Origin: Halomarina ordinaria
GTDB taxonomy: Archaea > Halobacteriota > Halobacteria > Halobacteriales > Haloarculaceae
NCBI RefSeq assembly: GCF_030553305.1
Contig: NZ_JARRAH010000001.1
Coordinates: forward strand, 186,001 to 250,000
Length of the DNA: 64,000 bases
Direction: 5' to 3'
Part shown: piece by piece, positions 4,562 to 24,285 of the stretch
Layout: each line of letters opens with the position of its first letter
How positions within the stretch are numbered: the first letter of the stretch is position 1
Translations under genes and position numbers: made by a program
Notes under the pieces: generated by a model
The model's database searches: none
Told to the model about the DNA's origin: nothing
Seen by the model: only the letters and a program-made list of their open reading frames with translations

Positions 4562-5647
4562 ATGAGGATTCTGAGGGTCGCCCAGAAGGTCTACCCGGAG
4601 GTGAGGGGCGGTGGTCCCTACCACGTCCACGCGCTGAGTCGGGACCAGGCGGCGGCGGGACACGACGTGACGGTACTCACCCTCGCGGACGACGACGAGG
4701 AGGCGGGGGTCACGCGCCGCGACGGCTACCGCGTGGTCAAGCGCGCCCCGACGACGACGCTCGCGGGCAACGGCATCTCCCTCGGCGTCGCGAACTACCT
4801 GCGCCGGGCCGACGAGTTCGACGTCGTCCACGCCCACTCGCACCTCTACTTCTCGACGAACCTCGCGGCGCTCCGCCGACGAGTGGGCGGCCCCCCGCTC
4901 GCCATCACGAACCACGGTCTCTACTCGCAGAACGCCCCCGAGTGGGTGTTCGACGCCTACCTCAAGTCGCTCGGGCGCTGGACGTTCAACCGCGCCGACA
5001 GGGTGTTCTGCTACACCGACGTCGACCGCCGCCGGGTGCGCGAGTTCGACGTCGGCAGCGAGATTCGCGTCGTCTCGAACGGCATCGACACCGAGCGCTA
5101 CGCGCCCGAGGGGCCGGAGAGCGACCTCGTCGACCCCGACGTGCCGTCGGTCGTCTTCGTCGGCCGACTCGTCGAGGGCAAGCGTCCCGAGACGGTGCTG
5201 CGCGCCGTCGACCGCCTCGCCGCGACGTTCCCGGACGTGACGCTCTACCTCTGCGGGGAGGGGCCGCTGGAGGGTGACTTGCGTCGCCTCGCCGGGGAGC
5301 TAGCCGCCGACGTCGAGTTCCTCGGCTACGTCGACCAGGAGGAGATGCCGGCGGTCTACCGGAGCGCGGACGCGATGATGCTCCCGAGTCGGGCCGAGGG
5401 CGTCCCCCGGACGGTGCTGGAGTCGCTCGCCTCCGGGACGCCCGTCGTCGCGAGCGACCTCGAACAGGTCCGCACCGTCGACTCGCCGTACCTCCGTCTC
5501 GTCCCCCTCGACGACGTCTCCGGGTTCACGTCGGCGCTCGAAACGTTCCTCCGCGAGCGCCCCGACGACGTCGACCTCTCCCCGGAGTACCGCTGGGACC
5601 GGACCGTCGAGGAGACGACCCGCGAACTGCGCGCGCTCGTCGGATGA
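4562..5647 (+). CDS. glycosyltransferase family 4
   Basis: A 361-residue GT-B fold retaining glycosyltransferase. The N-terminal acceptor domain has the glycine-rich loop (YPEVRGGGPYHVHALSR, residues 12-28) and HAHSHLYF. The C-terminal nucleotide-sugar domain has FVGRLVEGKRPE near residue 198 and the E-x7-E motif in SRAEGVPRTVLESLASGTPVV (around residues 278-298). It adds a sugar from an NDP donor to a lipid-linked or other acceptor at the cytosolic membrane face. The next glycosyltransferase overlaps its stop by 4 nt (ATGA), so the two are translationally coupled. The specific sugar cannot be told. Confidence 0.93.
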   Translation: MRILRVAQKVYPEVRGGGPYHVHALSRDQAAAGHDVTVLTLADDDEEAGVTRRDGYRVVKRAPTTTLAGNGISLGVANYLRRADEFDVVHAHSHLYFSTNLAALRRRVGGPPLAITNHGLYSQNAPEWVFDAYLKSLGRWTFNRADRVFCYTDVDRRRVREFDVGSEIRVVSNGIDTERYAPEGPESDLVDPDVPSVVFVGRLVEGKRPETVLRAVDRLAATFPDVTLYLCGEGPLEGDLRRLAGELAADVEFLGYVDQEEMPAVYRSADAMMLPSRAEGVPRTVLESLASGTPVVASDLEQVRTVDSPYLRLVPLDDVSGFTSALETFLRERPDDVDLSPEYRWDRTVEETTRELRALVG

Positions 5648-6918
5648 GCGCCGGCGGCGAGCGCGTCACGGTCGTCTTCTTTCGCACCGGGTACGACTCG
5701 CTCGGCGGCGGGTCGAAGATGCTCCTGCGCCTGCTCGAGCGCCTCGACCGCGAGCGGTTCGAGCCGGTGCTGTTGACCCAGCGCGAGGACGGCGTGGCGC
5801 GTCGCGCTCGCGAGGCCGGCGTCGAGGTGCGCGTCGTCCCCTACCGGGGGGTGCTCGACACGTACGACGGCGGATTGCTGGACGCCGGGCCGAGGCGCGT
5901 GCCACGGCTGGGGTTCAGGATACTCCAGTTCAACGCCGAGGCGCGCGACGTCTTCGCCCGCGCCGACGTGCTCTGGTGTAACGGCCTGCGGACGTACCTG
6001 ACCGCCCTCCCGGCCTCGCTGGCGGGGTCGGCACCCGTGGTCTGGAACATCGGCCTCCTGCGCGAGTCGACGGGGGCGGTTCGCCACCTCAACCGCCTCG
6101 CGCTCGCGACGACCGACTACGCGTTCATCGAGTCGCGCCGACAGGCGCGACGGGGGTTCACGGCGGCGCAGTACCGCGCGTACCGCGAGAAGCTCGTCGT
6201 CTTCCACAAGGGTATCGACACCGAGGAGTTCGACCCGCGGCGGGTCGAGGCCGGTGGGGTGGAGGCGAGCGGGGCCGACGAGGGGGCGACCGGCGGGGCG
6301 GACGAGCGCGCGTCGTCGTCCGGGTGGGTCGACGAGTGGAGCGTCGGCCAGGGTGAGGGCGACCGGCCGCTCCGCGTCGGCACCGCCGCCCTCATCAACC
6401 CGCGGAAGGGGCTCGACGACCTCCTCGCCGCGGCCCGCCTCCTCGCCGAGTCGCGCGACGACGTCGTCTTCGCCGTCGCCGGGGCGCCTGCCCGACCGGA
6501 GGACGAGGCGCACCTGGCGGACCTGCTCGCGCAGCGCGAGGCCTACGGCCTCACCGAGCGGGTCTCCTTCCTCGGCTGGGTCGAGGACGTCCCGTCGTAC
6601 CTCGCCGGTCTCGACGTCTTCGTCCTCCCCTCGCACAACGAGGGCATCCCGGGGGCGGTCCGGGAGGCGTCGGCGATGGAACTCCCGGTGGTCGCGACGG
6701 ACGTCGGCGGGACGGCGGACGTCGTCGCAGACGGCGTCACCGGCCTGCTGGTCGACCCCGGCGAGCCGGCGGACCTGGCGGCGGCCGTCGAGCGCCTGCT
6801 CTCGAACCCCGACGAGCGACGGGCGATGGGCGAGCGTGGGCGGCGTCGAATCGTCGAGTCGTTCTCGCTGCGCTCGTACGTCGCCGACTACGAGTCGTTC
6901 CTCGCGCGCGTCGCCTGA
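5644..6918 (+). CDS. glycosyltransferase family 4
   Basis: A 424-residue GT-B fold enzyme. The N-terminal domain has the loop FFRTGYDSLGGGSKMLLRLLE. The C-terminal domain has the donor-site motif HNEGIPGAVREASAMELPVVATDVGG with both catalytic-region glutamates. An unusual Gly/Ala/Ser/Glu-rich insertion (about residues 203-238) sits between the two domains, probably a flexible acidic linker. It overlaps the preceding GT4 gene by 4 nt, forming a two-gene operon. Its 3' end overlaps the 3' end of the convergent polymerase gene by 31 nt, so each transcript is antisense to the end of the other. Confidence 0.92.
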   Translation: MSAGGERVTVVFFRTGYDSLGGGSKMLLRLLERLDRERFEPVLLTQREDGVARRAREAGVEVRVVPYRGVLDTYDGGLLDAGPRRVPRLGFRILQFNAEARDVFARADVLWCNGLRTYLTALPASLAGSAPVVWNIGLLRESTGAVRHLNRLALATTDYAFIESRRQARRGFTAAQYRAYREKLVVFHKGIDTEEFDPRRVEAGGVEASGADEGATGGADERASSSGWVDEWSVGQGEGDRPLRVGTAALINPRKGLDDLLAAARLLAESRDDVVFAVAGAPARPEDEAHLADLLAQREAYGLTERVSFLGWVEDVPSYLAGLDVFVLPSHNEGIPGAVREASAMELPVVATDVGGTADVVADGVTGLLVDPGEPADLAAAVERLLSNPDERRAMGERGRRRIVESFSLRSYVADYESFLARVA

Positions 6919-8426
6919 GCGACGCCCCCCGCGCCTCGTGCCGCCGCGTCCGTACCTGCGTTCGTCCCCGCCGCCTCGGCGTCGACGGCCGCGCAGAGCC
7001 CCCACAGCGGTATCGCACAGACGTAACTGAGCAGCGTCAGGTGGTCGAAGACGGCGAGGGTGGTGAGGCCGAGGAAGCCACAGAGGAAGCCGAGGGCGGG
7101 CAGCGAGCGCTCCGCGACCGAGGTGGCGGCGCTCGCGAGCACCGACACCTGTGCGCCGACGTAGAGCAGCAGGCCGACCAGCCCCGTCTCGGCCGCGAGC
7201 GAGAGGTAGGCGCTGTGGATGGGTCTGCGGTTCGCGCCGAATTCGTGGGCGTGTTCGACGAAGTTGCCGCCGCCGATGCCGGCGACGGGGTGGTCGGCGG
7301 CGAGCGCGAACCCCGCGCGGTACTGCGCGAGGCGGCTGTCGAGGTTGCGCGCGTCGACCAGCGGGAGGGCGTCGGCGACCGACAGGAGCAGTTCCGGCGC
7401 GCGCGTGACGGCGACGATGGCGGCCACGAGCGCGAGGTAGCCGAGGAGGGCGCAGCCGAAGACGACCGAGCGTCGCTCGAGCAGGCCGAGGGCGTCGCAG
7501 GCGAAGGCGACGAGGAGCGCGACGCAGGCGACGAGGTAGGCGGCCTGGCCGGCGCTCGTGTACGTCAGCGCGAGGAGCGCGCCGGTCGCGCCGACACCGC
7601 CGACCGCGAGGGGGAGCGCGCCGGCGCGCCAGCGCTCGGCGAGCAGGCCGACGCCGACGGGGACGAGCAGCGTCGCGAGCGCCGCCAGCCGGTAGGACAT
7701 GCCCGTGAACCCGGCGACGTGGGTCCCCGAGCGGAACGGGCCGACCGCCTCGAACGCGTTGTCGACGGGTTCGCCGAGCGTCGAGAGGCCGAAGGAGTCG
7801 CCGTTGACCACCTGCGCGACCGCGAGCAGGAGGTGGGCGCAGAGCACGACCACCAGCGCGAGCGGGACGGCGCGGGGGCCGAGCGCCCCGCTCCGTACCG
7901 TGTAGTAGACGGCGACGTAGGTCAGCCAGCACTGGCCGACGAGGAGGGCGAAGTACACCGCCGCGCGGGTGTCGAGCGGCCGGCCGAGGGCGACGGGGAC
8001 GAGCGTCCAGAGGGCGAACAGGCCGAGGGCGACGCCCGCGGGCGGGAGGTCGCGGGGCAGGCGGTCGCGGTGCAACACGAGCAGGCCGAGCGCCAGAAGC
8101 AGCGGCCCCTGGAAGAGCCAGAGCTTCGGGCCGAGCTGGGAGGCGTACTCCCCCGCACGCCCGGTAAGGGGGTAGTCGGCGGAGAACGTCGCGAGGGTGA
8201 CCAGGAGGACGACGCTCCCGCCGAGGAGCTGTCGACGGGCCGCGAGGTAGGCGTAGACGCCCGCGAGCGCGGCGACGACGGCGTAGAGCGGCGTCACGTC
8301 CGCACGGGTGGCCAGCGGCGCGAACAGGAACAGCCCGCAGACGAGCAGCGCGACGGTGGCGAGGACGTCCGTCCGCGAGCAGTCTGCGTCCGCGCGCAGG
8401 AGCGCCGCCAGCGACGGCGTGGTCAT
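6888..8426 (-). CDS. O-antigen polymerase/ligase-like (Wzy/WaaL) membrane protein
   Basis: A 512-residue protein with about 11-12 TM segments and one large outward loop. That loop carries the Wzy_C/WaaL-type signature: ARNLDSRLAQYRAG, then HPVAGIGGGNF and HSAYLSLAAETGLVGLL. Family members join or ligate lipid-linked glycan repeat units on the outside of the membrane. The start at 8426 (MTTPSLAALLRAD) is chosen because it gives the normal length and the 4-nt ATGA overlap with the upstream glycosyltransferase; the longer frame upstream is an Arg-rich shadow. A second, distantly similar polymerase-ligase lies at 21244-22641. Confidence 0.88.
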   Translation of the reverse strand: MTTPSLAALLRADADCSRTDVLATVALLVCGLFLFAPLATRADVTPLYAVVAALAGVYAYLAARRQLLGGSVVLLVTLATFSADYPLTGRAGEYASQLGPKLWLFQGPLLLALGLLVLHRDRLPRDLPPAGVALGLFALWTLVPVALGRPLDTRAAVYFALLVGQCWLTYVAVYYTVRSGALGPRAVPLALVVVLCAHLLLAVAQVVNGDSFGLSTLGEPVDNAFEAVGPFRSGTHVAGFTGMSYRLAALATLLVPVGVGLLAERWRAGALPLAVGGVGATGALLALTYTSAGQAAYLVACVALLVAFACDALGLLERRSVVFGCALLGYLALVAAIVAVTRAPELLLSVADALPLVDARNLDSRLAQYRAGFALAADHPVAGIGGGNFVEHAHEFGANRRPIHSAYLSLAAETGLVGLLLYVGAQVSVLASAATSVAERSLPALGFLCGFLGLTTLAVFDHLTLLSYVCAIPLWGLCAAVDAEAAGTNAGTDAAARGAGGVAQATRARNDS

Positions 8427-9565
8427 AGCGCCTCGCGGACGATGCCTCGCATTCGCGTCTCGAACGTGCCGGCGGCGAACCGCTCGGGGTCGGGGAGCGT
8501 CCGTACTACCTCGCGGTGCGCCGGGTCCGAGAGGAGCGCATGTGCGTTCTCGACGGCCTCGTCCGCGTCCCGGTAGGTGAGCAGGTCGGCGTCGCCGACG
8601 GTCTCGGCCTGACCGCCCGTCGCGGGGACGAACGGGAGCATCCCCGCGGCGACCATCTCCGCGACGGTGATGCCGAAGTGCTCGTAGCGCTTGCCGTGGA
8701 TTCCATATCGATGGCGTTCGAGGAGGGAGACGAGTCGGTCGCGGGCGACGAACCCCTCGCACGTCAGCCAGTCGCGGCGACGGCAGTACTCGCGGACGCG
8801 CCGGGCGTACTCGCCCCGCCCGTCGCCGACGACGTGGAGGTGGACGTCGTGGCCGCGCTCGCGGAGCCGACCGACGACGTCGATGCAGGCGTGGACGCGC
8901 TTGTCGGGGACGAGTTTGCTCACGCAGACGAATCCGTCCTCTCGCTCGTCCCACGGGCGGCCGTCGAAGTCACCGACGCGGACGGGTGGGTGGACGACGT
9001 CTGCCGGGACGTCGTAGGTGGCTTCGAGGACGCCCGCGGTCCACGCGGCGTTCGTGAGGAGGCGCTTCGGGTGGTAGGTGGCGCTGGAGTCGAAGCCCGC
9101 GAGGCGTCTGCAGAGGGTGCGATAGGCGCGGTCGGGCGTGCTCGCGCGGCTCCCCTCGTCGGGGGTCGTAGGGGGAAAGAACACGGGGTGGTGGACGTAC
9201 TGGACGCTTCGCGCGAGGGGGAGTTCGGGTTTGGTGCTGACGACGAGGTCGAACTCGGACGCGTGGTCGAGGAGGGTGCGGACGACGACGGCGCTCTCCA
9301 GAAGGCCGAACTTCCCCTCGGGGCGACGGGCGCTGAGGTTCGAGAGGAGGGAGGGCGAGGGAGTGACGGTGGAGAGGGCTCGACTACTGATGGACGAACC
9401 GAAGCAGTGGTTCAGCACCTCGACGTCGGGGTCCCCGAAGGCGAAGACGGTGAGGTCGTGGTCGGCTTCGAGGGCGTCGATGGTGGCCGCGGCGACGGCC
9501 TCCGCGCCGCCGCGGTTGCGGTGGAGTTCCGGGTGGACGAGGGCGACGTCAGGCACGGTGGACAC
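8423..9565 (-). CDS. glycosyltransferase family 4
   Basis: A 380-residue GT-B glycosyltransferase. The N-terminal loop is VALVHPELHRNRGGAEAVAAATI. The C-terminal donor site includes FVCVSKLVPDKRVH and the sequence KRYEHFGITVAEMVAAGMLPFVP, in which the two glutamates take the usual E-x7-E place. The HGKRYEHFGI stretch resembles Alg11/mannosyltransferase-type GT4 enzymes, so a mannose or hexose donor is possible but not proved. It is the first gene of a two-gene operon with the Wzy/WaaL-like gene (ATGA overlap). The divergent spacer to the small TM protein is AT-rich with TATA-like elements on both strands. Confidence 0.92.
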   Translation of the reverse strand: MSTVPDVALVHPELHRNRGGAEAVAAATIDALEADHDLTVFAFGDPDVEVLNHCFGSSISSRALSTVTPSPSLLSNLSARRPEGKFGLLESAVVVRTLLDHASEFDLVVSTKPELPLARSVQYVHHPVFFPPTTPDEGSRASTPDRAYRTLCRRLAGFDSSATYHPKRLLTNAAWTAGVLEATYDVPADVVHPPVRVGDFDGRPWDEREDGFVCVSKLVPDKRVHACIDVVGRLRERGHDVHLHVVGDGRGEYARRVREYCRRRDWLTCEGFVARDRLVSLLERHRYGIHGKRYEHFGITVAEMVAAGMLPFVPATGGQAETVGDADLLTYRDADEAVENAHALLSDPAHREVVRTLPDPERFAAGTFETRMRGIVREAL

Positions 9566-9758
9566 CGTCGGTGGAGAGGGGGGAGTCCTCGGTACGGAGA
9601 CGAATACCGCAGGTGGTCGGACCGGCGGGAGGACTCGGCATTATTAAAGAGGGTGTATGGTGCTGAATATAAAGCTTGTTTGATACCGTGGACCACCTAT
9701 GTCGTGAGTGCTTTCGTTCGGTCGATTGCGGCCCACTTCATCGGTCGAAAACGCCAAC

Positions 9759-9766
9759 ATTTACAC
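9759..9766 (+). promoter_or_regulatory. TATA-like element (CATTTACA)
   Basis: CATTTACA ends 24 nt before the ATG at 9791. The spacing matches a leaderless haloarchaeal promoter and supports the small gene that follows. Confidence 0.5.
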
Positions 9767-9790
9767 TCTATTGACTGTCTCTGTCCGTAC

Positions 9791-9979
9791 ATGGTCACTC
9801 TCGACGCCTCGATGGTCGCGACCGCGCTCCGGGTCGACGCGTGGATACTCTCCGTCGTCGGCTTCGTCTGGATATTCACCACCGGGTTGCCCTCCTATCG
9901 ACTGATCTTCTACCTCGTCGCCCTCCTCGTCGGCGTCAGCGCGCTACTCGCGCCAACTTTCGTATTTCCGCGCGAGTAG
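9791..9979 (+). CDS. small two-TM membrane protein
   Basis: A 62-residue protein that is nearly all hydrophobic: one segment around residues 15-30 (WILSVVGFVWIFTTG) and a second around 36-55 (IFYLVALLVGVSALLAPTF). No family is recognised. It is supported as a gene by strong haloarchaeal codon choice (most third positions G or C) in an otherwise lower-GC spacer, and by the TATA-like element at the right distance. Its last 36 nt overlap the 3' end of the convergent membrane-protein gene. It may be an accessory subunit of the membrane machinery in the glycan locus, but this rests on location only. Confidence 0.6.
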   Translation: MVTLDASMVATALRVDAWILSVVGFVWIFTTGLPSYRLIFYLVALLVGVSALLAPTFVFPRE

Positions 9980-11176
9980 CTGTTTGCTGTCGTAGAACGC
10001 CGGTCCTGCGAAGATTACGAGCAGGAAGTTGAAGATGATTCGATGGCGGACGTTCGTCCCGAAGTTCGAGTTGACGAGGCCGTAGCCGACGATGCCGCCG
10101 AAGTAGACGGTCAGGAGGAGCATCGCGACGGTGACGTCCGTCTCTTTCCTCACGAAGGAGTAGAGCGCGAGCGCGCTCAGGACGAGCAGGATGGGGAGCG
10201 AACTCAGACCGAGGAGGTGGAACGTCGACTCGACCTGCCAGGGGAAGGGGGCGAACTGGAAGTAGATTCCCCGGAGAGGCGCGGAGAGGAGGACGTCGGT
10301 CCACGACTCGTAGCTCATGTCCTGGAGGTACGCCGCGCCACCCTGTGCGCGCCAGTCTCGTTCCTCTTCGAGCGTCTTTAGCGAGAAGAAACGAGTGAAC
10401 CCGGCGAACCCGAGCGCCCCGACCGGTACCGCGAACACCGAGAGCATCGGGATCGTGATGTCCCGTTCGATTACGTAGTCGGCGATGTGGACGACGACTG
10501 CGCCGACCGACGCGACGGTGATGATCAGGCCCAGCTCGGGGCGGATGAGCGTGAGTATCCCGATCATCGGGAACGCGAGCGCGGTCGGCCACAGTTCGTA
10601 CTCGACGAACGACCGGACGATGAGCGCGAGTACCGAGAAGGCGAGTATCATCGAGATAGACATCCGCATGGGGAGCGTCAGAAAGAGGAACGAGACGGGG
10701 AAGAACAGGACCAGCGCGACGATTGCACCCTCCCAGCTCTTCGCGGAGGGGTAGAGCGACCTCGCGAGCGAGACTGCGGGGATGGGCAGGAGGACGGCCA
10801 GGAAGGAGTTGACCACGACCATCGTCTCGGTCCGTGGTTCGAACGCGGCGTAGAAGATGGCCTGGAGGGAGCCGAACGCTGCGACACGACTCGATGCCTC
10901 CGGAGGTGTGTCTCCGAGTATCGTGGTCGCAGCGTTGTGATAGTTTCCGATGTCCCACGTGTAGGGTAGTTCCGGAAGGATAACGAGACCAACGACGAGA
11001 TGGAGTACCAGGGCGAGCGGGGCCAGTACTCTGAACGTCTTGTTATCGTACAAATAAGCCGTGCCGAGTAACACCAAGAATGCGAGGACGATAGGGAGGG
11101 CGACCATTTGGTCCAGTAGTTGCATTAGTGATTTATAGATACTCCGCTCTGGGAAACGGTATTCGAACCGCCTCAT
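9944..11176 (-). CDS. polytopic membrane protein, GT-C/polysaccharide-polymerase-like
   Basis: A 410-residue protein with about 10 TM helices. The first outward loop after TM2 holds ELPYTWDIGNYHNAA; an Asp followed by an aromatic in this loop is typical of GT-C transferases (GT39-like) and of some EpsG/Wzy polymerases. A second large loop lies around residues 275-320 (FFSLKTLEEERDWRAQGGAAYL). It could polymerise repeat units or transfer a lipid-linked sugar outside the cell. The start at 11176 is uncertain; the Met at 11125 (MQLLDQMVALPIV) would put the first TM closer to the N-terminus. Codon GC is a little lower than the flanks. Confidence 0.7.
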   Translation of the reverse strand: MRRFEYRFPERSIYKSLMQLLDQMVALPIVLAFLVLLGTAYLYDNKTFRVLAPLALVLHLVVGLVILPELPYTWDIGNYHNAATTILGDTPPEASSRVAAFGSLQAIFYAAFEPRTETMVVVNSFLAVLLPIPAVSLARSLYPSAKSWEGAIVALVLFFPVSFLFLTLPMRMSISMILAFSVLALIVRSFVEYELWPTALAFPMIGILTLIRPELGLIITVASVGAVVVHIADYVIERDITIPMLSVFAVPVGALGFAGFTRFFSLKTLEEERDWRAQGGAAYLQDMSYESWTDVLLSAPLRGIYFQFAPFPWQVESTFHLLGLSSLPILLVLSALALYSFVRKETDVTVAMLLLTVYFGGIVGYGLVNSNFGTNVRHRIIFNFLLVIFAGPAFYDSKQLLARKYESWRE

Positions 11177-11277
11177 TCATGGATTACGTCTGACCGTCAC
11201 CTGTCGCGCCGCGAACTGTGAACGAGAAGTTCTATAGAGTTGACCTGAGCAGTGGCAGGTAAGGGGTATACCATCAC

Positions 11278-12948
11278 GTGAACTCAACGAAGTCTGAATA
11301 CTGCTTGACCTACGAATCTGAGTGGTCGACTGTCGAGAGTACCAGCGTTCGGGGGAGTGGTTTCGTCGCTGGGGAGTGCTACAGCACGGAACGCCTGTGC
11401 ACGTTCTTCGAGGGCGCGAACTCCACACGCGAACTGGTCGACAAGTTGCGGTCCGTAAATGGGTTCTTCGCCCTAATCACCGAAGTCGATGGCGACCTGG
11501 TTCTCGCGACCGACAGGATACAGAGTATTCCGTTATTCTACACGAACTCGACAGACGGTGTCCTCGTCGGGACGGACAGTTCCCAAATCGTCGACCGCGT
11601 CGGCCGCTCGAATCGCGACCCAGTACACGAAGCGGAGTACATCGTCACGGGATACGTTACCGGTCGCGATACCCTGTTCGACGACATCTATCAGGTCCAA
11701 GCCGGAGAGTTCGTCGTACTCAGTGAGGATGCGTCTGCTCCCGCACACCGAGAACAGTACTACCGGTACCGACACGAAACTCCCAGGGAATCGACGACCA
11801 GAGAACTCCTCTCTGATCTGGACGACGTTCTCGTCGCCGCCTTCTCGCGGCTCATCGACTACGCAGACGGTCGACCGATCGTACTCAACATGAGCGCGGG
11901 TTACGACTCTCGGCTCCTCGCGACGATGCTCGCTCGCTTGGAGTACGAGAACACGATCGCGTTCACCTACGAGTATTCGGGTGACGAGTCGAAGTACTGT
12001 GAGGAGATCGCCGATTCACTCGGACTCGAATGGGTCTACGTCACTCAGGACCACGACGAGTGGCGCGAGTGGTACCACTCCGACAAACGAGTCGAACTTG
12101 ACCGGAACGCTGGTATCATCGACGCAGTACCGACGATCGGGCCCGCGATTGCGTTGAAAAAACTGTCCGAAGACGGTAGAGTCCCGGAAGATTCCGTCTT
12201 CGTAACTGGTGACGCCGCCTCGACGACTGGGGATCATATCCCTGCATCGTTGATCGACGCAAATAATGGAAGTCTCGAACAGTACATCGATTCGATTCTC
12301 TCGAACCATTACGAACTCTTCGAGTGGAGTTCCGAATTCGACGAGGTCTTCCGCGACAGAATCGTCAGGGCGACGGACATCGACGGCCTCTCGACGCGAG
12401 ACGACGTCATTGATGCGTTCGAACTCTGGGACTGGCAGGAAAGACAAGCGAAACACATCCTACGGAATGGACTGTTCGACTTCTGGGGATACGACTGGTG
12501 GCACCCGCTCTGGGACACTGAGTTCGTGAACTTCTGGCTGACAGTCGCTCCCGAACACCGCTACGACCGTTCACTCTACGAACGCTATACCAAAGAACTG
12601 TATGCAGACGTGGCTGATCGTTCGATCTCTGAGGTCGAGACGTCGTTTCACGAGCGATCCTCGTGGGTTCGAAAAATCGAGCGGGTTCTCACCGGAACGC
12701 CACTGAAAGACCCGGTAGAACGAATCTATCGAGAGTACATGTCACCCCGAACGTACGACGGGAATCCGATCTGGGGAATCATGTCCCGAGACCAGTTCGA
12801 CGAGATTCATTCGGGCCGACAGGTGATTCACACGTTTCGAATCCTGAATGTCCTAGGTCGACTGTCGCTTGAGCCGAGAGGTGACGGCTGTACTTTCAAA
12901 AACGGCATCTGTCTTTCAGATATTGAGAATAACTTATTTGATAATTAG
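11278..12948 (+). CDS. asparagine synthase-like ATP-dependent ligase (no glutaminase Cys)
   Basis: A 556-residue protein with a GTG start. Residues 1-120 look like a degenerate Ntn glutamine amidotransferase domain (RSVNGFFALITEVDGDLVLATDR, IPLFYTNSTDG) but lack the Cys2 nucleophile. The second domain carries the AsnB-type pyrophosphatase loop S206-A-G-Y-D-S211 and a later VTGDAASTTGD segment, so it should form acyl-adenylates from ATP. A glycan-locus setting suggests amidation or other ligation onto a carboxyl sugar, as proposed for AsnB-like proteins in bacterial O-antigen clusters; this is inference. Without glutaminase it would use free ammonia or another amine. GC content is about 10 points lower than the flanking genes, and the downstream genes are lower still. 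Confidence 0.82.
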   Translation: MNSTKSEYCLTYESEWSTVESTSVRGSGFVAGECYSTERLCTFFEGANSTRELVDKLRSVNGFFALITEVDGDLVLATDRIQSIPLFYTNSTDGVLVGTDSSQIVDRVGRSNRDPVHEAEYIVTGYVTGRDTLFDDIYQVQAGEFVVLSEDASAPAHREQYYRYRHETPRESTTRELLSDLDDVLVAAFSRLIDYADGRPIVLNMSAGYDSRLLATMLARLEYENTIAFTYEYSGDESKYCEEIADSLGLEWVYVTQDHDEWREWYHSDKRVELDRNAGIIDAVPTIGPAIALKKLSEDGRVPEDSVFVTGDAASTTGDHIPASLIDANNGSLEQYIDSILSNHYELFEWSSEFDEVFRDRIVRATDIDGLSTRDDVIDAFELWDWQERQAKHILRNGLFDFWGYDWWHPLWDTEFVNFWLTVAPEHRYDRSLYERYTKELYADVADRSISEVETSFHERSSWVRKIERVLTGTPLKDPVERIYREYMSPRTYDGNPIWGIMSRDQFDEIHSGRQVIHTFRILNVLGRLSLEPRGDGCTFKNGICLSDIENNLFDN

Positions 12949-12997
12949 AATTTGCAAAAACCAATCTATATGGATATTGGACTTCGATAGAAGCTTA

Positions 12998-13876
12998 ATG
13001 CATGAGAGTTCGAGGGTTGCATCTTCTGAGCGGGGTATCCTATATATTGCTACTGAACAGCGCTTCGTGGAGGAAGCAACGGTTTCTGCTAGAAGTGCCC
13101 GTGCTTCGATGGGAGATATACCGATTGCTATTATAACTGACTCCGAGAACGATGTCCCGAGTATATTCGACATCACTATTGAATCCTCCGACAATTCACA
13201 TGATTTCGGTGAAAAAGTATATAATATTTCGAAATCTCCTTTTGATAGGACGATATATTTAGATACTGATATACACGTTGAGGACGATATAAGTGAGTTG
13301 TTCGATATATTAGGACACTGGGACTTGGCGGCTGCTCATAATATCAGCGATTACGACTTTGGCGGTATCGAAATACCGCCTGACCATCCCCTGACTACGC
13401 TACCTATGGGTATTCCAGAATATAACACCGGACTCATCGCGTACTGTTCCAATTCGCACACAGATAATTTATTCAAAGAGTGGGTAAAGGCATACGAATA
13501 CGATGAGAGAGTTATGGAGCATCCTCCGGATCAGGCGTCGTTCAAGCGGGCCTTGTTCGAATCTGACACCCGTGTTCATACTCTGTCACGCGAGTACAAC
13601 TGTCTTTTCAGGTCGCCTGGCTGCGTCAGCCGCCCCGTGAAAGTATTTCATGGTCGATTAATTGATCTCGAAGGGCATGGTGCTAGCAAATCTGCGGATG
13701 TTAGGCAGGCAGTGGACGAAATAAATCGCCAGAGTGGGAAGAGAGTATACTTTACTGGTGCGGACACGACTATAGTAGTAGATCGATTGAGTAAAAATTT
13801 AGTAACTCTGTTGAGCTTAATTCGAAAAAAGAAATTTGCGAAAGTACTTGAGGTGTGTGCTAGACGTCTTAGCTAA
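12998..13876 (+). CDS. GT8-like glycosyltransferase (GT-A fold)
   Basis: A 292-residue protein starting MHESSRVASSERGILYIATEQRFV. Its layout fits a GT-A nucleotide-diphospho-sugar transferase: a first Rossmann half (ILYIATEQ, AIITDSEND), the metal-binding D89-T-D91 motif in TIYLDTDIHVEDD, a glycine-containing acceptor loop, NTGLIAYCSNS, and HPPDQASFKRALF near the donor site. It lacks TM segments, so it should work in the cytosol at the membrane. The frame is open back to 12869, but the leading 43 residues overlap the previous gene and read poorly. It is strongly AT-rich. Its 3' end overlaps the next AsnB-like frame by up to 41 nt, suggesting coupled translation. Confidence 0.78.
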   Translation: MHESSRVASSERGILYIATEQRFVEEATVSARSARASMGDIPIAIITDSENDVPSIFDITIESSDNSHDFGEKVYNISKSPFDRTIYLDTDIHVEDDISELFDILGHWDLAAAHNISDYDFGGIEIPPDHPLTTLPMGIPEYNTGLIAYCSNSHTDNLFKEWVKAYEYDERVMEHPPDQASFKRALFESDTRVHTLSREYNCLFRSPGCVSRPVKVFHGRLIDLEGHGASKSADVRQAVDEINRQSGKRVYFTGADTTIVVDRLSKNLVTLLSLIRKKKFAKVLEVCARRLS

Positions 13877-15167
13877 CGATGACGTATACTACAGCCCAAA
13901 TCGAATACAGCTATCGATCTCTCACCACGTAGAAATGAATGATCTAATCGACAGTGTCCTCTATTTCGGTTATTATCCCGTTTGCGCACGTAGTAGTCTC
14001 CCAGATGTCATTTCACGATCTGCGTCGGCGCAAGTACCGACACTAGACCGCGATGAACTCGTTACCAATGTCCAGCATGCATTCGGTGAAGCGATTGATG
14101 CAGAACTGGCTCTTACAGATTGTGAGACGACCCACGTTGTCCCTCTGAGTGCCGGTCTCGACTCTCGTGCCATACTCGGTGGTCTGTTGGACCATCCAGC
14201 AGTAGATTTATCAGATATTCATACTATTAGTTTTGGTTCACCAGGGACATGGGACTTGGAAATAGGACGACAAGTAGCGGAAGTCGCTGGTGTCAGTAAT
14301 ACTGCAATCGATTTGTCTGTTGGATCATTCGACTGGTCGCTCGGCTCGATTCGAGAATATGCCGCGAGTCGAAAAACCCCCGGTCGAGTACTCGACGGGT
14401 ATGTCAACTCTCAGATTCCAACCCTTGTAGAAGACGATGCAGTGATTTGGAGTGGGTTTATGGGTGACCCATCTGTGGGTGGCCACCAACCTGATCAGCC
14501 CAGCAAGGATTGGGGCGCTGCGTGCGAATATTTTGCGGACCACGAGCGATACTGTGGCGGGCTTGTGAGCTCTCAATTCGACCCAGTCTCGGTACTACCT
14601 GACGAACCTTATATTACGAGAAAGAAGTTATCTTACGAAGAACAACTCGACTTCGCGCTCCGACAGCAGTGTCTTATCGCACCCATCGTACTTCATTCCA
14701 ATCACTATCGGACGCCGTTTTTGCGACCCTGCTGGCTGGATGTCGCTCTTAACCTCCCACGGCAACACCGTAAAAACCGGAATCTATTCAAAGAAGCATT
14801 CCTCAACGCGTTCCCGGAACTATTTTCTCTTCCGACGGATGCACACTTCGGTCTTCCACTCACGGCTAACCGGGCTCGGGGTTGGATACGAAGTAAACGA
14901 TTAGGACTCGCTCGGGAAATCGCAGCTCAAATGGGTATCCCTTATCTCCATCCCGCAACGAACTACATCGATTTCGCGGCAGCATTTCGAACCGACTGTG
15001 AATTGCGGGACTCGATGTATCTCTTGGTCTCCAAGTTTTGTAATCGAACCATTGATACTGAAATCGACCCGCTTCGTATTTGGCGGGAACATCAGGACGG
15101 CCGCGACCATAGCAACGAAATCAGAGCGATTAGCTCACTCGAACTCTATCTTGATGCACGAGCATGA
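13836..15167 (+). CDS. asparagine synthase-like ligase, C-terminal domain type
   Basis: A protein of up to 443 residues. The ATP-pyrophosphatase loop S105-A-G-L-D-S110 lies in HVVPLSAGLDSRAILGGLL, and SGFMGDPSVGGH takes the place of the usual second conserved AsnB loop. There is no Ntn glutaminase domain and no N-terminal Cys; instead a short N-terminal region (YYSPNRIQLSISHHVEMND) precedes the ligase domain. The start is uncertain: the longest frame uses TTG at 13836, with GTG at 13857 and ATG at 13935 as alternatives, the first two overlapping the GT8-like gene. It probably forms an adenylated carboxylate for amide formation on a glycan. It is a paralogue of the gene at 11278 at domain level and lies in the AT-rich island. 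Confidence 0.75.
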   Translation: MRKYLRCVLDVLANDDVYYSPNRIQLSISHHVEMNDLIDSVLYFGYYPVCARSSLPDVISRSASAQVPTLDRDELVTNVQHAFGEAIDAELALTDCETTHVVPLSAGLDSRAILGGLLDHPAVDLSDIHTISFGSPGTWDLEIGRQVAEVAGVSNTAIDLSVGSFDWSLGSIREYAASRKTPGRVLDGYVNSQIPTLVEDDAVIWSGFMGDPSVGGHQPDQPSKDWGAACEYFADHERYCGGLVSSQFDPVSVLPDEPYITRKKLSYEEQLDFALRQQCLIAPIVLHSNHYRTPFLRPCWLDVALNLPRQHRKNRNLFKEAFLNAFPELFSLPTDAHFGLPLTANRARGWIRSKRLGLAREIAAQMGIPYLHPATNYIDFAAAFRTDCELRDSMYLLVSKFCNRTIDTEIDPLRIWREHQDGRDHSNEIRAISSLELYLDARA

Positions 15168-15224: not shown

Positions 15225-15389
15225 ATGTACTCATTGTCTGAGATATATAAAGGATTTCAGGACCCAACAAAAATTGCACGGGAGATAAATAGAAAGTGGT
15301 ATGATTTACAAAATAGCCCCGGGGAACGAGACGAGTATGTTGACGAAGACAAGATTCAACAACAATTGGCAAAGTTAGGATACATGTGA
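15225..15389 (+). CDS. 54-residue protein, possible joined ends of a sulfatase-like gene
   Basis: An ATG-to-TGA frame of 54 residues in AT-rich DNA, charged and probably helical (IYKGFQDPTKIAREINRKWYD, then an acidic stretch). The C-terminus QQLAKLGYM copies the tail found on the three AP-superfamily enzymes of this locus (LEDLGYL, LKQLGYL, LEDLGYL). From general knowledge, the N-terminal 25 residues resemble the leader of some haloarchaeal sulfatase-like proteins (a conserved ...NP..ARE.NR.YY... helix). It may be an internally deleted remnant or a small free-standing protein. No domain between the two ends is left. The gene lies 57 nt after the AsnB-like gene on the same strand. Confidence 0.5.
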   Translation: MYSLSEIYKGFQDPTKIAREINRKWYDLQNSPGERDEYVDEDKIQQQLAKLGYM

Positions 15390-15425: not shown

Positions 15426-16586
15426 ATGTTATACTACCTTTCCAACGCACGATTACCTAGTAAAGAAGCTCACACAATACAACAGATGAAAATGTGTGAT
15501 GCTTTTGTTGAAAAAGACGAAGAAATCTGCTTCGTTCATCCGAGTTATGGAAACGCGGATCAGAATATAACATGGGACTCTCTTTCCGACTACTACGGAC
15601 TAAATCATCCATTCTCTATTCGCACTATCAATACGCTTTCTGATGAATCGGAATTCATACCGGATTCAATAGAAGGAATCTCGAAGATACTACTGGTAAA
15701 TTACTGGCTTCTACACAAAATATACGAGGGGGAAATAACTCGATCAGATACGATCTACAGTCGGCTTTTCTACCCGATAGCTGCGTTCTCCGAATGGTAC
15801 CATCGACTTCCGCAGAGCCGTTCTCCGACGCTCATTCACGAGCCACACAACCTCCTCGGTTCGAGATTCGAGCATCGAATGTTCAAAAACATAGATGGCG
15901 TCGTCCCTCTGACTACCTATCTGAAGGACGAGATGGTCCGAGAGGGGATGGTCGACGAGAGCGACACCTTCGTAGCTCACGACGGTGTCGACCTCACTCC
16001 GTATCGAGGAACGTCCAAAGAACGCGCCCGTGAGGAACTGGGCCTCCCACTGGCGGAGAAGTTCGTGATGTACACCGGTCACCTCTACCCGAGAAAAGGT
16101 GTACAGTTTCTCGCTGAAGTCGCCCGAGAGATACAGGGAACCGTCCTCGTCGTCGGGGGCTATCAGGAGGACATCGACCGTATACAGTCTCAAGTCCCTA
16201 CCACAGATAACCTTGAGTTCACCGGGTTCGTCGAACCGTCCCGGATTCACACGTACCAGCTCAGTGCGGACGTTCTGGTCGCGCCGTACACTCGCGAGGC
16301 GTGGATGCCCTCCCCGCTCAAACTGTTCGAGTACATGGCGACCGGCAACCCCATCGTCGCCAGTTCGATACCGACGATCGAAGAGGTGCTGACGCACGAA
16401 CGAAACGGGCTGCTCGTCCCCCCCGGCGATGCCGATCAGCTCGGCGACGAGATCAACAGACTTCTGGACGATAGAGAACTCGCGTCGGAAATCGCAGCTA
16501 CGGCTCGAAACGACGTCGAGCAGTATACGTGGACGAAACGAGCGAGTGACATCCTCGATTTCATCGAGCAGAAGGTGAATCGCTGA
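15426..16586 (+). CDS. glycosyltransferase family 4, compositionally mosaic
   Basis: A 386-residue GT-B fold enzyme. The N-terminal half has NARLPSKEAHTIQQMKMCDAF. The C-terminal donor domain has MYTGHLYPRKGVQFLAEVA and YTREAWMPSPLKLFEYMATGNPIVA, a PSPLK-E-Y-MA form of the GT4 nucleotide site common in archaeal and cyanobacterial enzymes. It is complete and of normal length. The first ~125 codons are AT-rich like the island upstream, and the remainder returns to GC-rich haloarchaeal codon use, with the change around 15780-15840. Gene spacing (36 nt from the small gene upstream) suggests one operon from 11278 onward. It converges with the ABC transporter gene. Confidence 0.88.
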   Translation: MLYYLSNARLPSKEAHTIQQMKMCDAFVEKDEEICFVHPSYGNADQNITWDSLSDYYGLNHPFSIRTINTLSDESEFIPDSIEGISKILLVNYWLLHKIYEGEITRSDTIYSRLFYPIAAFSEWYHRLPQSRSPTLIHEPHNLLGSRFEHRMFKNIDGVVPLTTYLKDEMVREGMVDESDTFVAHDGVDLTPYRGTSKERAREELGLPLAEKFVMYTGHLYPRKGVQFLAEVAREIQGTVLVVGGYQEDIDRIQSQVPTTDNLEFTGFVEPSRIHTYQLSADVLVAPYTREAWMPSPLKLFEYMATGNPIVASSIPTIEEVLTHERNGLLVPPGDADQLGDEINRLLDDRELASEIAATARNDVEQYTWTKRASDILDFIEQKVNR

Positions 16587-16658: not shown

Positions 16659-18458
16659 CTAGTGCACCGACGACTGTATGCTGTACAATTCGGCGTACTT
16701 CCCGTCCCGAGACAGCAGTTCGCGATGCGGGCCCTCTTCCGTGATCCTCCCGTCTTCCAGCGTGTAGATTCGGTCTGCCCCGACGACCGTCGAAAGTCGA
16801 TGGGCGATAGCGATGACTGCGTAGTCCCGTTCCATCTCCTCGATCGCCGTGTGCACCTTCTCTTCGAGGTGCGAGTCGAGGTCGCTCGTCGCCTCGTCGA
16901 GGATGAGCAGGTCGGCGTCTTTCAGCAGTGCCCGAGCGATCGAGATCCGCTGGCGCTGCCCACCGGAGAGCCGGACCCCGTTGTCACCGAGGATGGTGTC
17001 GTACCCGCTCGGGAAATCGTCAAGGAACTCCGTGACCTGCGCAATCTCACAGACCCGTTCCAGTTCCTCTTCCGTGGCGTCTCGCTTCCCGACGGTGATG
17101 TTCCGTCGTAGAGTATCGTTGAAGATGAAGGGGTCCTGCCTGACGAGCGAGACACGCGAGCGCCACTCGCGCAGGTCGTACTCGTCTATCGGCGTTCCGT
17201 TCGCGGTGATTCGCCCCTCGTCGGGTTCGTACATCCGGACGAGCAGGGAGACGATGGTCGATTTGCCGGCCCCGGATGGTCCGACGAACGCCGCGAACTC
17301 GCCCCGGTCGACCGAGAACGAGAGGTCTCGGAGAACGATCTCCTCCGCCGTCTCGTAGGAGAACGTCACGTCGTCGAAGGTGATCTCGTCCAGCTGGTCC
17401 GGAACTGGTCTGTCGCCGGCGTCCGGCTCTTTCTGTTCGTCCAGTTGGCCGATGAACTCCTGCGTTCGGACGAGGTGTGGGAGTTCACCTTCGACGCGGT
17501 AGATGTGGTTCTGGAGCGCACTGATCTTCGGCCCGAGACGGAACATCGCGAAGAGGAACACGCCGAGCGCGCCGAGCGAGAGCGACGCGAAGGTGATGGC
17601 GAGGTAGATGAGCATGAACACGCTGACGGCAGTCGCGAGCTGGTAGAAGTTCTTGATCGCGGCCTGATTTCGACGGAGTTTGATCTGCGAGTTCGCAAAC
17701 TGGTCGACCGCTTCGGTGAACTTGCCGAACAGTTCGCCGGTCATACCGAAGAGTTTCACTTCACGGATACCCTGCGTACCCGCCTGAGCAGACGCCTGTA
17801 GTCGCTCGTTGGCGTCCGCGACCAGGTCGCCGAGCGAGTAGCCAGGCTCGAGGACGCTGCGGAAGACGAACGTCAGGACACCGAGGAACGCGGCGGTGAC
17901 GAGCGTGAGGATTGGCGCGAGGTACAACGCGATCGAGATGTACATCAACGAGAGCAGTCCCTGCTCGATGGCCTGTATCGAGTACTTGATGACGCGCCCC
18001 GCGTACTCCGACTGCGTCACGATGGCGTTCAGGATGTCGTCGGAGCCCTCCTGGTCGAAGTAACCGATGCGAGCGTCGAGCGCCCGCTCGAAGGCGTTGA
18101 CCTGTAGGTGGCGAACGTAGTACGTCTCGACGGCGGCGCGAAGCCACCCGACGAGGAAGCTCGCCGTGAAGCGGACGGTCATAATCAGGAGGACACCGGC
18201 GACCAGATAGCCCAGCGTGAACGGGATTCCGAGCAAGGTGTACACCTGCGCGAACGCGCCAAGCATCCCGTCCGCCTGCTCGGGCTGGGCCTGTCCCTGT
18301 GCGATCTCGACGATGGGTAACAGGAAACTGATGCCGATCCCCTCCAGCAGGGCGGCGACGACGCTCGCCGCGATCACCCCCGCGGCGTAGCCCGGTCGAA
18401 AGAGCGCGACCCGATACAGCGCACGCAGTTTATCACGCGTCGATAGATTCCTGCTCAT
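16659..18458 (-). CDS. ABC-type lipid-linked glycan flippase (TM-NBD fusion)
   Basis: A 599-residue half-transporter. Residues 1-330 form a type IV exporter membrane domain with six TM segments. Residues 355-599 form the nucleotide-binding domain: Walker A GPSGAGKST (393-401), Q-loop VRQDPF (~438-443), signature LSGGQ (497-501), Walker B LLILDEATS (516-524) and H-loop AHRLST (552-557). As a homodimer it would move a lipid-linked sugar or lipid outward, like PglK/MsbA. Its place among glycosyltransferases favours the flippase role over multidrug export. It ends 73 nt from the convergent GT4 gene, and its start at 18458 faces the end of another GT4 gene on the same strand. Confidence 0.9.
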   Translation of the reverse strand: MSRNLSTRDKLRALYRVALFRPGYAAGVIAASVVAALLEGIGISFLLPIVEIAQGQAQPEQADGMLGAFAQVYTLLGIPFTLGYLVAGVLLIMTVRFTASFLVGWLRAAVETYYVRHLQVNAFERALDARIGYFDQEGSDDILNAIVTQSEYAGRVIKYSIQAIEQGLLSLMYISIALYLAPILTLVTAAFLGVLTFVFRSVLEPGYSLGDLVADANERLQASAQAGTQGIREVKLFGMTGELFGKFTEAVDQFANSQIKLRRNQAAIKNFYQLATAVSVFMLIYLAITFASLSLGALGVFLFAMFRLGPKISALQNHIYRVEGELPHLVRTQEFIGQLDEQKEPDAGDRPVPDQLDEITFDDVTFSYETAEEIVLRDLSFSVDRGEFAAFVGPSGAGKSTIVSLLVRMYEPDEGRITANGTPIDEYDLREWRSRVSLVRQDPFIFNDTLRRNITVGKRDATEEELERVCEIAQVTEFLDDFPSGYDTILGDNGVRLSGGQRQRISIARALLKDADLLILDEATSDLDSHLEEKVHTAIEEMERDYAVIAIAHRLSTVVGADRIYTLEDGRITEEGPHRELLSRDGKYAELYSIQSSVH

Positions 18459-18584: not shown

Positions 18585-19757
18585 TCAGTCGGACGACGAG
18601 ACGACTGACTTCGACTTTCCTCTCTCCCGGGTTCCGTTCAACACCTCCTCGTACCGGTCTACGACCGCCTCCAACTGGTAATGTTCCTCGACGTACGCCC
18701 GCGCTCGCTCGCCCATCTCGCGTCGTTCGTCCACGTCTCGCTGCAACCGACCGACGTCCTCGACCAGTCGCTTCATCGACCCGGACTCGATGCCGATACC
18801 CTCCTCGAAGACGTCGAGACTGAACCGCTGTGAGACGACGGGCACGGCGTAGCGCCACGCTTCGAGGAACGTGTTCGGGAACCCCTCGTAGTCGGAGGTG
18901 TTGACGAGCAGGCTCGCCTCGCGGTAGTAGTCGTGGATGGCGTCGGGAGCCACGCCGGGAACGAACTCCATGTTGGGCCGGTCCTCGACTATCCCCGCCA
19001 GCTCGGCGTAGAACGCGTCGCTGCTCTCCTGCTGGCAGACCATCACGAACTCCTCCTCGGGAAGGGAGTCGGCCAATTCGAGGAGACGCAGCGGTTTCTT
19101 CTTGTCCCGGTCGCTCGTCCCGATCCAGAGGACGTACTCGCGGTCGTCCTGCTCCAGTAGCTCCGAGCGCGGCGGGAGGTCGTAGCCGTTGGGAATCACG
19201 GTCGGGTCGACGCCGACCTGTTCTCGAATCCGCGCTCGCTGGCGCTCGGTCTGGGCGACGAGGTACTCCGTCTCCCCGATGCTCCGGAGGTAGAGCTTCG
19301 TGAACGCTCTCCCGTAGCGTCGTTCGAGGTACTCGGGATCGACGTCGGAGTCGTTCGCGATGCAGAACAGCCGGTCCTTCCCGAGCGACTTGGCGAGCAG
19401 GAGCGTGACGAAGTGGAGGCGCGGCCCGCCCCGAACGTAGTAGACGTCCGCGTCGACGGCCTTCATCGTCTTACGGAGCTGGTACACCCGGTTCAGCATC
19501 TCGCGCGGCCCGGCCACGTCCGTCGGACAGCCCTTCCAGAGGTCGAACCCGTCGACCTCGTACCTCTCTGGCTGGCCGAAGTCCCCGACGATGACGGAGA
19601 CGTCGTACCCTCGCTCCCGGAGTTCGCTCGCGATGAGGTGTTGCTGGCGCTCCGCCCCGCCCGACGCCTTCCCGTCCTCCTGTTCGATGTATCTGTAGAG
19701 CCACGGCGAGATGAAACAGATGTGTGGATTATCGTTCATTAGCTGGATGATGTTCAC
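18585..19757 (-). CDS. glycosyltransferase family 4
   Basis: A 390-residue GT-B enzyme. The N-terminal domain opens with HICFISPWLYRYIEQEDGKASGGAERQQ, with the Gly-Gly-Ala-Glu acceptor loop. The C-terminal domain has VLWIGTSDRDKKKPLRLLELA and the E-x7-E segment NTSDYEGFPNTFLEAWRYAVPVV. It is cytosolic; donor and acceptor are unknown. The Met at 19739 (MNDNPHICFISPW) is an equally good start. It is probably co-transcribed with the AP-superfamily gene upstream (85 nt) and the ABC flippase gene downstream on the same strand. Confidence 0.9.
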   Translation of the reverse strand: MNIIQLMNDNPHICFISPWLYRYIEQEDGKASGGAERQQHLIASELRERGYDVSVIVGDFGQPERYEVDGFDLWKGCPTDVAGPREMLNRVYQLRKTMKAVDADVYYVRGGPRLHFVTLLLAKSLGKDRLFCIANDSDVDPEYLERRYGRAFTKLYLRSIGETEYLVAQTERQRARIREQVGVDPTVIPNGYDLPPRSELLEQDDREYVLWIGTSDRDKKKPLRLLELADSLPEEEFVMVCQQESSDAFYAELAGIVEDRPNMEFVPGVAPDAIHDYYREASLLVNTSDYEGFPNTFLEAWRYAVPVVSQRFSLDVFEEGIGIESGSMKRLVEDVGRLQRDVDERREMGERARAYVEEHYQLEAVVDRYEEVLNGTRERGKSKSVVSSSD

Positions 19758-19842: not shown

Positions 19843-21153
19843 CTACAGGTAACCGAGGTCTTCCAGTTGTGACTGGACCTCGGTTGTGTAGGCTCGCTGC
19901 TCTCCCGCCTCCACGGAGATCTCGTCGAGTCCACTCACGATCTCCTCGAACTCCGATAACGCGGTGTCTGCATCGTCTCCTCCCGCGTGAACTAGATCAC
20001 CTTCGGCTTGCTCGTAGACGTACGAACCGCGTTTGAATACGACACCTCGTACTGTTTGTTCTAATTTCTCTATTCTCTCTCTTTCGACGCCGGCTTCTTG
20101 TAACTTATTCAACCATGAAATTCTCAGACCATGGCACTCAGAGATATAATTGTTTGAACTGGGTGAGTCAAGTAAACTTTCTCCTCTGGCATCTTTTTCG
20201 GTCTGTGCAAGGTCCAATATCGTCTGGTACACGTCTAAAAGACTGGTCGGACGGTCAGACGACACGTTCTCTCGATGAGAGCCACTGATACAGACCGGTA
20301 CGTGTGTGAGTTCTGGGAACACGCCCCAGATGTGTTGTCCGACGCCGTGCTCGCCAAATAGCTCGCCGTGGTCGGATACTGTGATTATGTAATCGAAGTG
20401 CTCCTCGAGCTCGTGGAAGATCTCTCTGTACTTGTCCGACAGATATCGCGCGCAATCGTTGTACGCGGTTTTTAGCCTCTCGTTCGGATTTCGCTCTCCG
20501 GACTCCGCCCATTGTTCAATACTTACCCCCTCGTACGGTACCGTCTGATACTCCCTCGGGGGCTTGTATGGTGTATGGACGTCCATCAGATTCACGTAGA
20601 GGAACTCGTCCGAACCGAACTCCATGCGCTCGATTTTCGAGAGTGAATCCTCGGCACTGTGGACGGAATCCGTCTTTATTTTCCATCCGTATTTGAGCGA
20701 CCGCAGCGTTTTCGAGTCGCTCAGTAGGCACTTAGAAAGGACTTCGATGTCCCTCAGTAGGCCTGCATTCGACGCGTTCTCGATCGCGTCTCTCCAGTTG
20801 AAGATGTCGTCGTCAGTACCTGACGCGTTCCCGGTTGGAACGAACTCGTCGAACCCCCGGTCGAAGTCGTTCAGCGGTGACGCCAGCAGATTGGCGCTGA
20901 GGGCACGGGTCCGGTAGCCCGCGTCACTGAGTTGTTCTGCGAGAGTCGGCGAGTCACAATCGAGCGTTTCGTGTTTTGCGTGGACTCCGATCTCGCTCGG
21001 ATACTTCCCCGTGAACAGCGACGCGTGCGCTGGGACGGTATAATGGCTCGTCGACCACGCGTTCTCGTATCTACGCCCTGGTACCCAGTCGAAGTACTCG
21101 TCGAACGTGTCTTTTCTGAGCGTGTCGAGCACGACCAGCGCGATATTCGTCAT
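19843..21153 (-). CDS. alkaline-phosphatase-superfamily (sulfatase-like) enzyme
   Basis: A 436-residue AP-superfamily protein without signal peptide or TM segment. The metal-binding D10-T-L-R is in the first strand (IALVVLDTLRKDTF). The nucleophile region reads T39-V-P-A-H43, so Thr replaces the Cys/Ser that sulfatases convert to formylglycine and His replaces their Arg. The second metal site is VSDHGELFGEHGVG. The C-terminus SQLEDLGYL is shared with the two other enzymes of this family in the locus. A Thr nucleophile is used by phosphoethanolamine and phosphoglycerol transferases, so phosphoryl or sulfuryl transfer onto glycans is possible. Part of the gene (near 20040-20240) is lower in GC than the flanks. 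Confidence 0.85.
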   Translation of the reverse strand: MTNIALVVLDTLRKDTFDEYFDWVPGRRYENAWSTSHYTVPAHASLFTGKYPSEIGVHAKHETLDCDSPTLAEQLSDAGYRTRALSANLLASPLNDFDRGFDEFVPTGNASGTDDDIFNWRDAIENASNAGLLRDIEVLSKCLLSDSKTLRSLKYGWKIKTDSVHSAEDSLSKIERMEFGSDEFLYVNLMDVHTPYKPPREYQTVPYEGVSIEQWAESGERNPNERLKTAYNDCARYLSDKYREIFHELEEHFDYIITVSDHGELFGEHGVGQHIWGVFPELTHVPVCISGSHRENVSSDRPTSLLDVYQTILDLAQTEKDARGESLLDSPSSNNYISECHGLRISWLNKLQEAGVERERIEKLEQTVRGVVFKRGSYVYEQAEGDLVHAGGDDADTALSEFEEIVSGLDEISVEAGEQRAYTTEVQSQLEDLGYL

Positions 21154-24252: not shown

Positions 24253-24285
24253 CACGATATGTCTCCCGCAACGGGCAGACCCCAT

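Follow-up and report, generated by a model that had tools for sequence, protein, structure and literature searches.

In a 64,000-nucleotide stretch of the Halomarina ordinaria genome (contig NZ_JARRAH010000001.1, positions 186,001 to 250,000; hereafter the window), two genes for proteins of the AsnB (asparagine synthetase) superfamily, here called genes A and B, stand on either side of a gene for a GT8-like glycosyltransferase. Comparison across Halobacteria revealed that they sit in a haloarchaeal locus with a fixed frame (epimerase, GT4 glycosyltransferase, membrane protein, ABC exporter and sulfatase) and exchangeable central genes. We tentatively favor a reading in which this is a surface-glycan locus whose central genes, among them A, B and the GT8-like gene, are interchangeable, with A and B perhaps serving as divergent ATP-dependent modifiers of carboxyl sugars.

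Two AsnB-like proteins without a glutaminase cysteine

Gene A (11278-12948, plus strand; GTG start, 556 aa) encodes a degenerate N-terminal nucleophile (Ntn) domain at about residues 7-160 followed by a pyrophosphate-loop (PP-loop) synthetase domain at about residues 174-530, as supported by Pfam and an AlphaFold2 model (pLDDT 86.7). It scores 25.9 bits against PF00733, above the 21-bit cut-off, with a sub-threshold GATase_7 match. Gene B (13935-15167, plus strand; ATG start, 410 aa) encodes a synthetase domain alone and falls narrowly under the same PF00733 cut-off at 20.7 bits, a threshold that its orthologues pass. The listed open reading frame of B opens at TTG 13836. Because a Natrinema pallidum relative (50% identity) starts where the window has ATG 13935 (MVNLIDNLLYYGYNP vs MNDLIDSVLYFGYYP), and because residues before this ATG are mostly of low confidence in the AlphaFold2 model (pLDDT 88), ATG 13935 is most likely the true start, and B so delimited does not overlap the GT8-like gene.

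Evaluating the two proteins for the features of a canonical AsnB, we found the ATP-binding loop in both, as the initial annotation had proposed (MSAGYDSR at residues 205-212 of A; LSAGLDSR at residues 71-78 of B). The core SxGxDSR is invariant in both families and conforms to the TIGR01536-type SGGxDS loop, so that an ATP site is likely in A and B alike. The glutaminase cysteine, in turn, is missing from both, as domain, alignment and start inspection agree: the Ntn domain is degenerate in A and wholly missing from B and its ten relatives, none of roughly 25 A relatives examined has a cysteine at position 2, and the canonical AsnB proteins found in haloarchaeal relatives start with MCG. Nor does a different start restore the cysteine, an outcome that the initial annotation had allowed for, as no alternative start gives an N-terminal cysteine in either gene. 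A stop closes the frame of A a few codons 5' of its GTG, and the sole early cysteine, residue 9, is preceded by a tyrosine codon, so that no start can make it N-terminal. In a separate AsnB-like gene (L048:7780-9711), a TGLCGSFG motif lies near the start, where a leucine-codon start might expose an N-terminal cysteine.

Structural and profile comparisons place both proteins among AsnB-type enzymes. For A, Foldseek against the PDB ranked TsnB9 first (TM-score 0.55), followed by beta-lactam synthetase, carbapenam synthetase and AsnB; B matched AsnB, human asparagine synthetase (ASNS), beta-lactam synthetase and TsnB9 at TM-scores of 0.36-0.44, with TsnB9 highest (0.44), and LarE, TtuA and NAD synthetase were among the weaker fold matches. 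PDB searches with single sequences gave too little signal to be informative, and profile searches gave usable matches, with beta-lactam synthetase on top for A (E 1.3e-12) and ASNS for B. Scores were far below the cut-offs of the curated NCBIfam models: against TIGR01536 (cut-off 267.1 bits), A scored 48.1 and B 19.7 bits, and the best NCBIfam match of A, TIGR03108 (eps_aminotran_1), reached 50.7 bits against a cut-off of 816.9, with no match to that model for B. By hhalign, the A family aligned to canonical AsnB at E 6e-20 and to the B family at E 2e-18 over 259 columns, and the B family aligned to canonical AsnB at only E 2e-12. Given this stronger match between A and B, gene B looks like an A-type protein minus the Ntn domain. 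In A, that domain is probably kept as a dead, structural one, by analogy with beta-lactam synthetase. Neither sequence is a product of chance, since family profiles find matches in other genomes with E-values down to about 1e-237 (A) and 1e-137 (B).

A conserved glycan locus with exchangeable central genes

The gene between A and B (12998-13876, plus strand) carries a DxD metal-site motif (YLDTDIHV) and resembles GT-A-type nucleotide-sugar transferases of the GT8 and PF03407 kinds. Its initial description as GT8-like stands as to the GT-A type, but its scores are under the cut-offs of both PF01501 (16.4 bits; cut-off 24.3) and PF03407 (17.6 bits; cut-off 22), and the assignment is therefore a weak one. 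It is the direct neighbor of B in 3 of 11 B loci, which share one architecture, the orthologues adjoining B in two other genomes (G199 and G186) being 52-55% identical to it.

To place these genes in context, we surveyed 391 Halobacteria genomes and found B in 11, the A family in 53 and the GT8-like family in 39. Genomes were shared more often than expected (A and B in 5 against 1.5 expected; B and GT8-like in 4 against 1.1; A and GT8-like in 11 against 5.3), with Fisher p-values of 0.008-0.017 that are not corrected for phylogeny. The initial annotation had suggested a possible module of A, the GT8-like gene and B, and as a fixed module this is not supported: A and B are adjacent in the window only, lying on different contigs or more than 200 kb apart in the other four genomes that share them, A-family genes are mostly orphans, and the GT8-like family usually occurs without either. 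Homologues of A and of the GT8-like gene are thus scattered, but those of B are not. No match turned up in phage records or IMG/VR contigs, and a virus-borne origin was rejected on this basis.

Carriers of B include N. pallidum DSM 3751, Natronorubrum sulfidifaciens JCM 14089 and Natronomonas sp. LN261, and in nearly every carrier genome B lies in a glycan cluster, with Wzx-type flippases and glycan genes at four of the loci (L079, L082-L084). Within the stretches examined, only the B locus of Natronomonas sp. LN261 (L047) has no glycosyltransferase marker; B there adjoins an ABC transporter and a PGF-CTERM surface protein of 1291 aa (L047:9968-13843), a hint that the glycan decorates the cell-surface layer. 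In N. pallidum, a broken MsbA-type ABC exporter (L077:6003-6916) lies directly beside B, with an intact copy about 3.4 kb off.

Because automated gene calls are sometimes wrong in high-GC DNA (for example at L035 and L079), synteny was re-scored by marker tblastn. Loci L080 and L081, from two congeneric genomes outside the family of H. ordinaria, hold GT4, membrane protein, GT4, B, GT8-like (52-54% identical), ABC exporter (67-68% identical) and epimerase genes; L080 has a sulfatase in addition, so that much of the window gene set is present there, and the block of B, GT8-like and ABC exporter is kept in both. Two further loci (L135 and L136) have the GT8-like gene and the same ABC exporter with no A or B marker. 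The locus of the nearest A relative (L117; 57% identity), in a different family from the window, is the same glycan locus with epimerase, GT4, membrane protein, A and ABC exporter and with neither B nor the GT8-like gene; it also has an AMP-binding-like protein (sub-threshold) and a pyruvyl-transferase family protein.

Of the 11 B loci, 5 have another AsnB-like gene no more than 5 kb from B (the window, N. pallidum, N. sulfidifaciens, and loci in G223 and G431). These partners of B all lack the cysteine and belong to different subfamilies, and the one in N. pallidum spans two reading frames, possibly owing to a frameshift that is either natural or a sequencing error. In three of these loci a single glycosyltransferase-like gene lies between B and its partner, namely the GT8-like gene in the window, a GT4 gene in N. 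pallidum (L077) and a polysialyltransferase-like gene in N. sulfidifaciens (L078). The paired arrangement that had first been noted in the window therefore recurs in outline, but with unrelated parts.

Weighing the proposed function

Under the reading that we tentatively favor, B would descend from an AsnB-type ancestor through complete loss of the glutaminase domain, and A would retain a dead one. Each would bind ATP through its SxGxDSR loop and activate a carboxylate of the glycan pathway (a uronic acid, for example). Free ammonia, or some other small nucleophile, might then be attached to this carboxylate, decorating the sugar before export, and the GT8-like enzyme would transfer a sugar within the same repeat unit. 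Both A and B would have this one glycan as their target, but as separate inventions and not as an obligate complex. By analogy with WbpS/WbqG and TsnB9, such a ligase is the best reading of the two proteins.

The catalytic residues weigh against it. From alignments and established knowledge, we take Glu364, Asp367 and Lys466 of human ASNS to be Glu348, Asp351 and Lys449 of E. coli AsnB (numbered from Cys1). In the human enzyme, E364A, E364Q and D367A abolish activity, and Lys466 touches the adenylate phosphate, its counterpart being essential in AS-B (PMC6748925). As aligned, counterparts of Glu348 and Lys449, which asparagine synthetase catalysis needs, are conserved in neither family. For B, hhalign sets SGFMGDP on AsnB SGEGSDE and LPTDAHFG (LPTxxxxGLP in the family) on the RQKEQF stretch, and the family has no conserved lysine column anywhere. 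For A, the AsnB glutamate is absent from the first loop (TGDAAS; PGQTVA or PGHTVA in relatives), and no lysine is conserved in the C-terminal stretch where Lys449 is expected; this second loss is less certain, as the hhalign alignment of A to AsnB ended before that point. The closest basic column to the expected site in A is Lys/Arg431, and in a weak alignment to beta-lactam synthetase the A stretch opposite catalytic Lys443 contains no lysine. Unlike A and B, the N. pallidum partner of B keeps GEFAD and SSKQKLG, which resemble the AsnB Glu, Asp and Lys positions. Both families do keep an RQ motif and arginines after a P(L/F).D segment. The lost Glu/Asp pocket would fit a substrate other than aspartate, and the lost lysine is the main objection to a ligase; nor was a partner gene identified that would supply ammonia or make an amine. 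The initial proposal of a ligase using ammonia thus retains its ATP-pyrophosphate loop but is weakened, and AsnB chemistry in A and B is not assured from their sequences. Genomic context adds a further objection. The association with glycan genes proposed at the outset holds for B, nearly always, and for the GT8-like gene conserved beside it, but most A-family genes are orphans away from glycan genes.

Several alternatives were considered. One or both proteins might have ceased to be synthetases and serve as pseudo-enzymes that bind ATP and have a regulatory or scaffolding role in the glycan machinery, as the combined loss of the cysteine and of the Glu348 and Lys449 equivalents would allow, together with the want of any conserved lysine in the B family. 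We consider this unlikely, because the PP-loop, the arginine columns (DSR, RQ, R..R) and several other motifs show strong conservation across diverged members (11 and 23), as in an active site, and because a conserved arginine, or Lys/Arg431 in A, could stand in for the lysine. Candidate replacements for Lys449 and Glu348 are Arg276, Arg312 and Arg315 of B (numbered on the 443-aa open reading frame) and Arg389, Arg428 and Arg431 of A. The initial annotation instead suggested a modification module, perhaps with A and B as a pair; in its strong form, they would be an obligate pair acting on one sugar in a dedicated module with the GT8-like enzyme. The partners found near B far exceed the roughly 0.26 per 10 genomes expected from copy number alone, and the single intervening glycosyltransferase-like gene recurs at three loci; however, this enrichment is confounded by glycan loci being a natural home for AsnB-like genes, the partners come from different subfamilies with differing genes in between, at six B loci the stretch covered holds no AsnB partner, and A and B adjoin in the window only, the closest relative of A being without B. 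We regard an obligate pair as rather improbable.

It also seems doubtful, and somewhat more so, that A entered the cluster by recombination and acts elsewhere, leaving B and the GT8-like enzyme to act on the glycan. Its family does consist mostly of orphans, some in a conserved non-glycan neighborhood, and the family tree mixes glycan and orphan contexts with at least four changes between them; yet A of the window and A of L117 form a fully supported pair in that tree, and both stand in the same glycan locus in different families. There is a slim chance that, in haloarchaeal glycan loci, B is one half of a split synthetase whose other half is a further AsnB-like protein lacking the cysteine; such an enzyme would couple a carboxyl sugar to either an alcohol or an amine through a new arginine-based active site without the AsnB Glu and Lys. 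Least credible to us is a different PP-loop chemistry, for example sulfur transfer or ligation to a group other than a carboxyl: LarE, TtuA and NAD synthetase do appear among the weaker fold matches and the AsnB substrate-site residues are lost, but the best full-length matches are AsnB-type enzymes, and alignments of the A and B families revealed no conserved cysteine or iron-sulfur motif.

Neighborhood in the window and additional A-family loci

Around the three central genes, the frame of the locus runs from a GT4 glycosyltransferase at one edge (4562-5647, plus strand; PF13439, 106.8 bits; 58-59% identical in relatives) through a multi-pass membrane protein divergent from A (9944-11176, minus strand; 41-44% identical in L081 and L117) to an MsbA/PglK-type ABC exporter that anchors it (16659-18458, minus strand; PF00005/PF00664; 53-68% in relatives) and a conserved sulfatase-family protein (19843-21153, minus strand; PF00884, 71.2 bits; 39% in L080). 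Two more GT4 glycosyltransferases flank the exporter (15426-16586, plus strand, PF00534, 97.8 bits; 18585-19757, minus strand, PF13439/PF00534). Just past B lies the remnant of a sulfatase-superfamily gene (15225-15389, plus strand), a 54-codon open reading frame that matches both ends of N. pallidum L077:13393-14304, where the gene is intact; its first roughly 29 and last roughly 25 residues are fused, the middle having been deleted in frame. Three sulfatase-superfamily genes occur in the glycan region of the window (19843-21153, 22780-24324 and 24590-26053, the third by 26% tblastn similarity only). Two same-strand Wzy_C (O-antigen ligase-like) genes about 13 kb apart (6888-8375 and 21244-22641) and a Wzx-type flippase (26180-27610) besides the ABC exporter suggest that the window possibly holds two side-by-side glycan loci.

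Elsewhere, A-family genes have varied neighbors. Four congeneric members are beside transporter and aldo-keto-reductase-type genes and one adjoins phosphoglycerate-kinase-like and GTPase genes (functions judged by eye), and in another group an unrelated ABC gene is about 4 kb off. A tandem in G157 (L121:7612-9318 and 9356-12847; 71% identity) is a recent duplication, and tail-fibre-like or right-handed beta-helix-like proteins, again by eye, lie several kb from A-family genes at L040, L044 and L121. An A-family gene in two overlapping frames (L125:8887-10271, in G329), which has a flippase nearby and a GT8-like gene 5 kb away, is a copy of A in decay within a glycan cluster.

Comparison with known systems

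AsnB-like proteins without the glutaminase cysteine are common in haloarchaea, and our literature searches on such proteins in haloarchaeal glycosylation turned up nothing specific and no Cys-less one given a glycan function. Lasso-peptide cyclases of the McjC type are AsnB-type enzymes with a degenerate Ntn domain, and an ABC transporter is likewise found near A and B, but a lasso-peptide cluster was rejected as the neighbors do not fit: a 152-aa neighbor at L047 is a SLOG protein, and no B1/B2 leader protease family occurs among Pfam-scanned neighbors (window, L046, L047; short precursors were not searched). A and B share the PP-loop and synthetase fold of E. coli AsnB and human ASNS, but differ from them in the missing (B) or degenerate (A) glutaminase domain and in the unconserved Glu348 and Lys449. 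Beta-lactam and carbapenam synthetases offer the Cys-less Ntn domain fused to an AsnB synthetase domain, as in A only; they differ in that A has no detectable catalytic Lys region and is set among glycan and not antibiotic genes.

Two systems come closer in chemistry. WbpS and WbqG, of the AsnB family, are uronamide-forming enzymes encoded in clusters for O-antigen and A-LPS (PMC7468200), and they share with A and B the superfamily and the surface-polysaccharide setting, TIGR03108 being their model; A and B differ in lacking the glutaminase cysteine, in the apparent loss of the Glu348 and Lys449 counterparts, and in scores far below the cut-off. The hydroxyamidotransferase TsnB9 moves a hydroxamate nitrogen onto a carboxylic acid (PMC13418202); it is the nearest solved fold to A and the highest-scoring one for B, but at 13-15% identity, and no amidooxygenase genes were noticed at the A/B locus. 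As a small glycan-bound family with a defined neighbor and a conserved non-AsnB active site, B is a good entry point for asking which acid is activated. At the level of the locus, haloarchaeal glycan loci shuffle central cassettes within a fixed frame, as bacterial O-antigen loci do.

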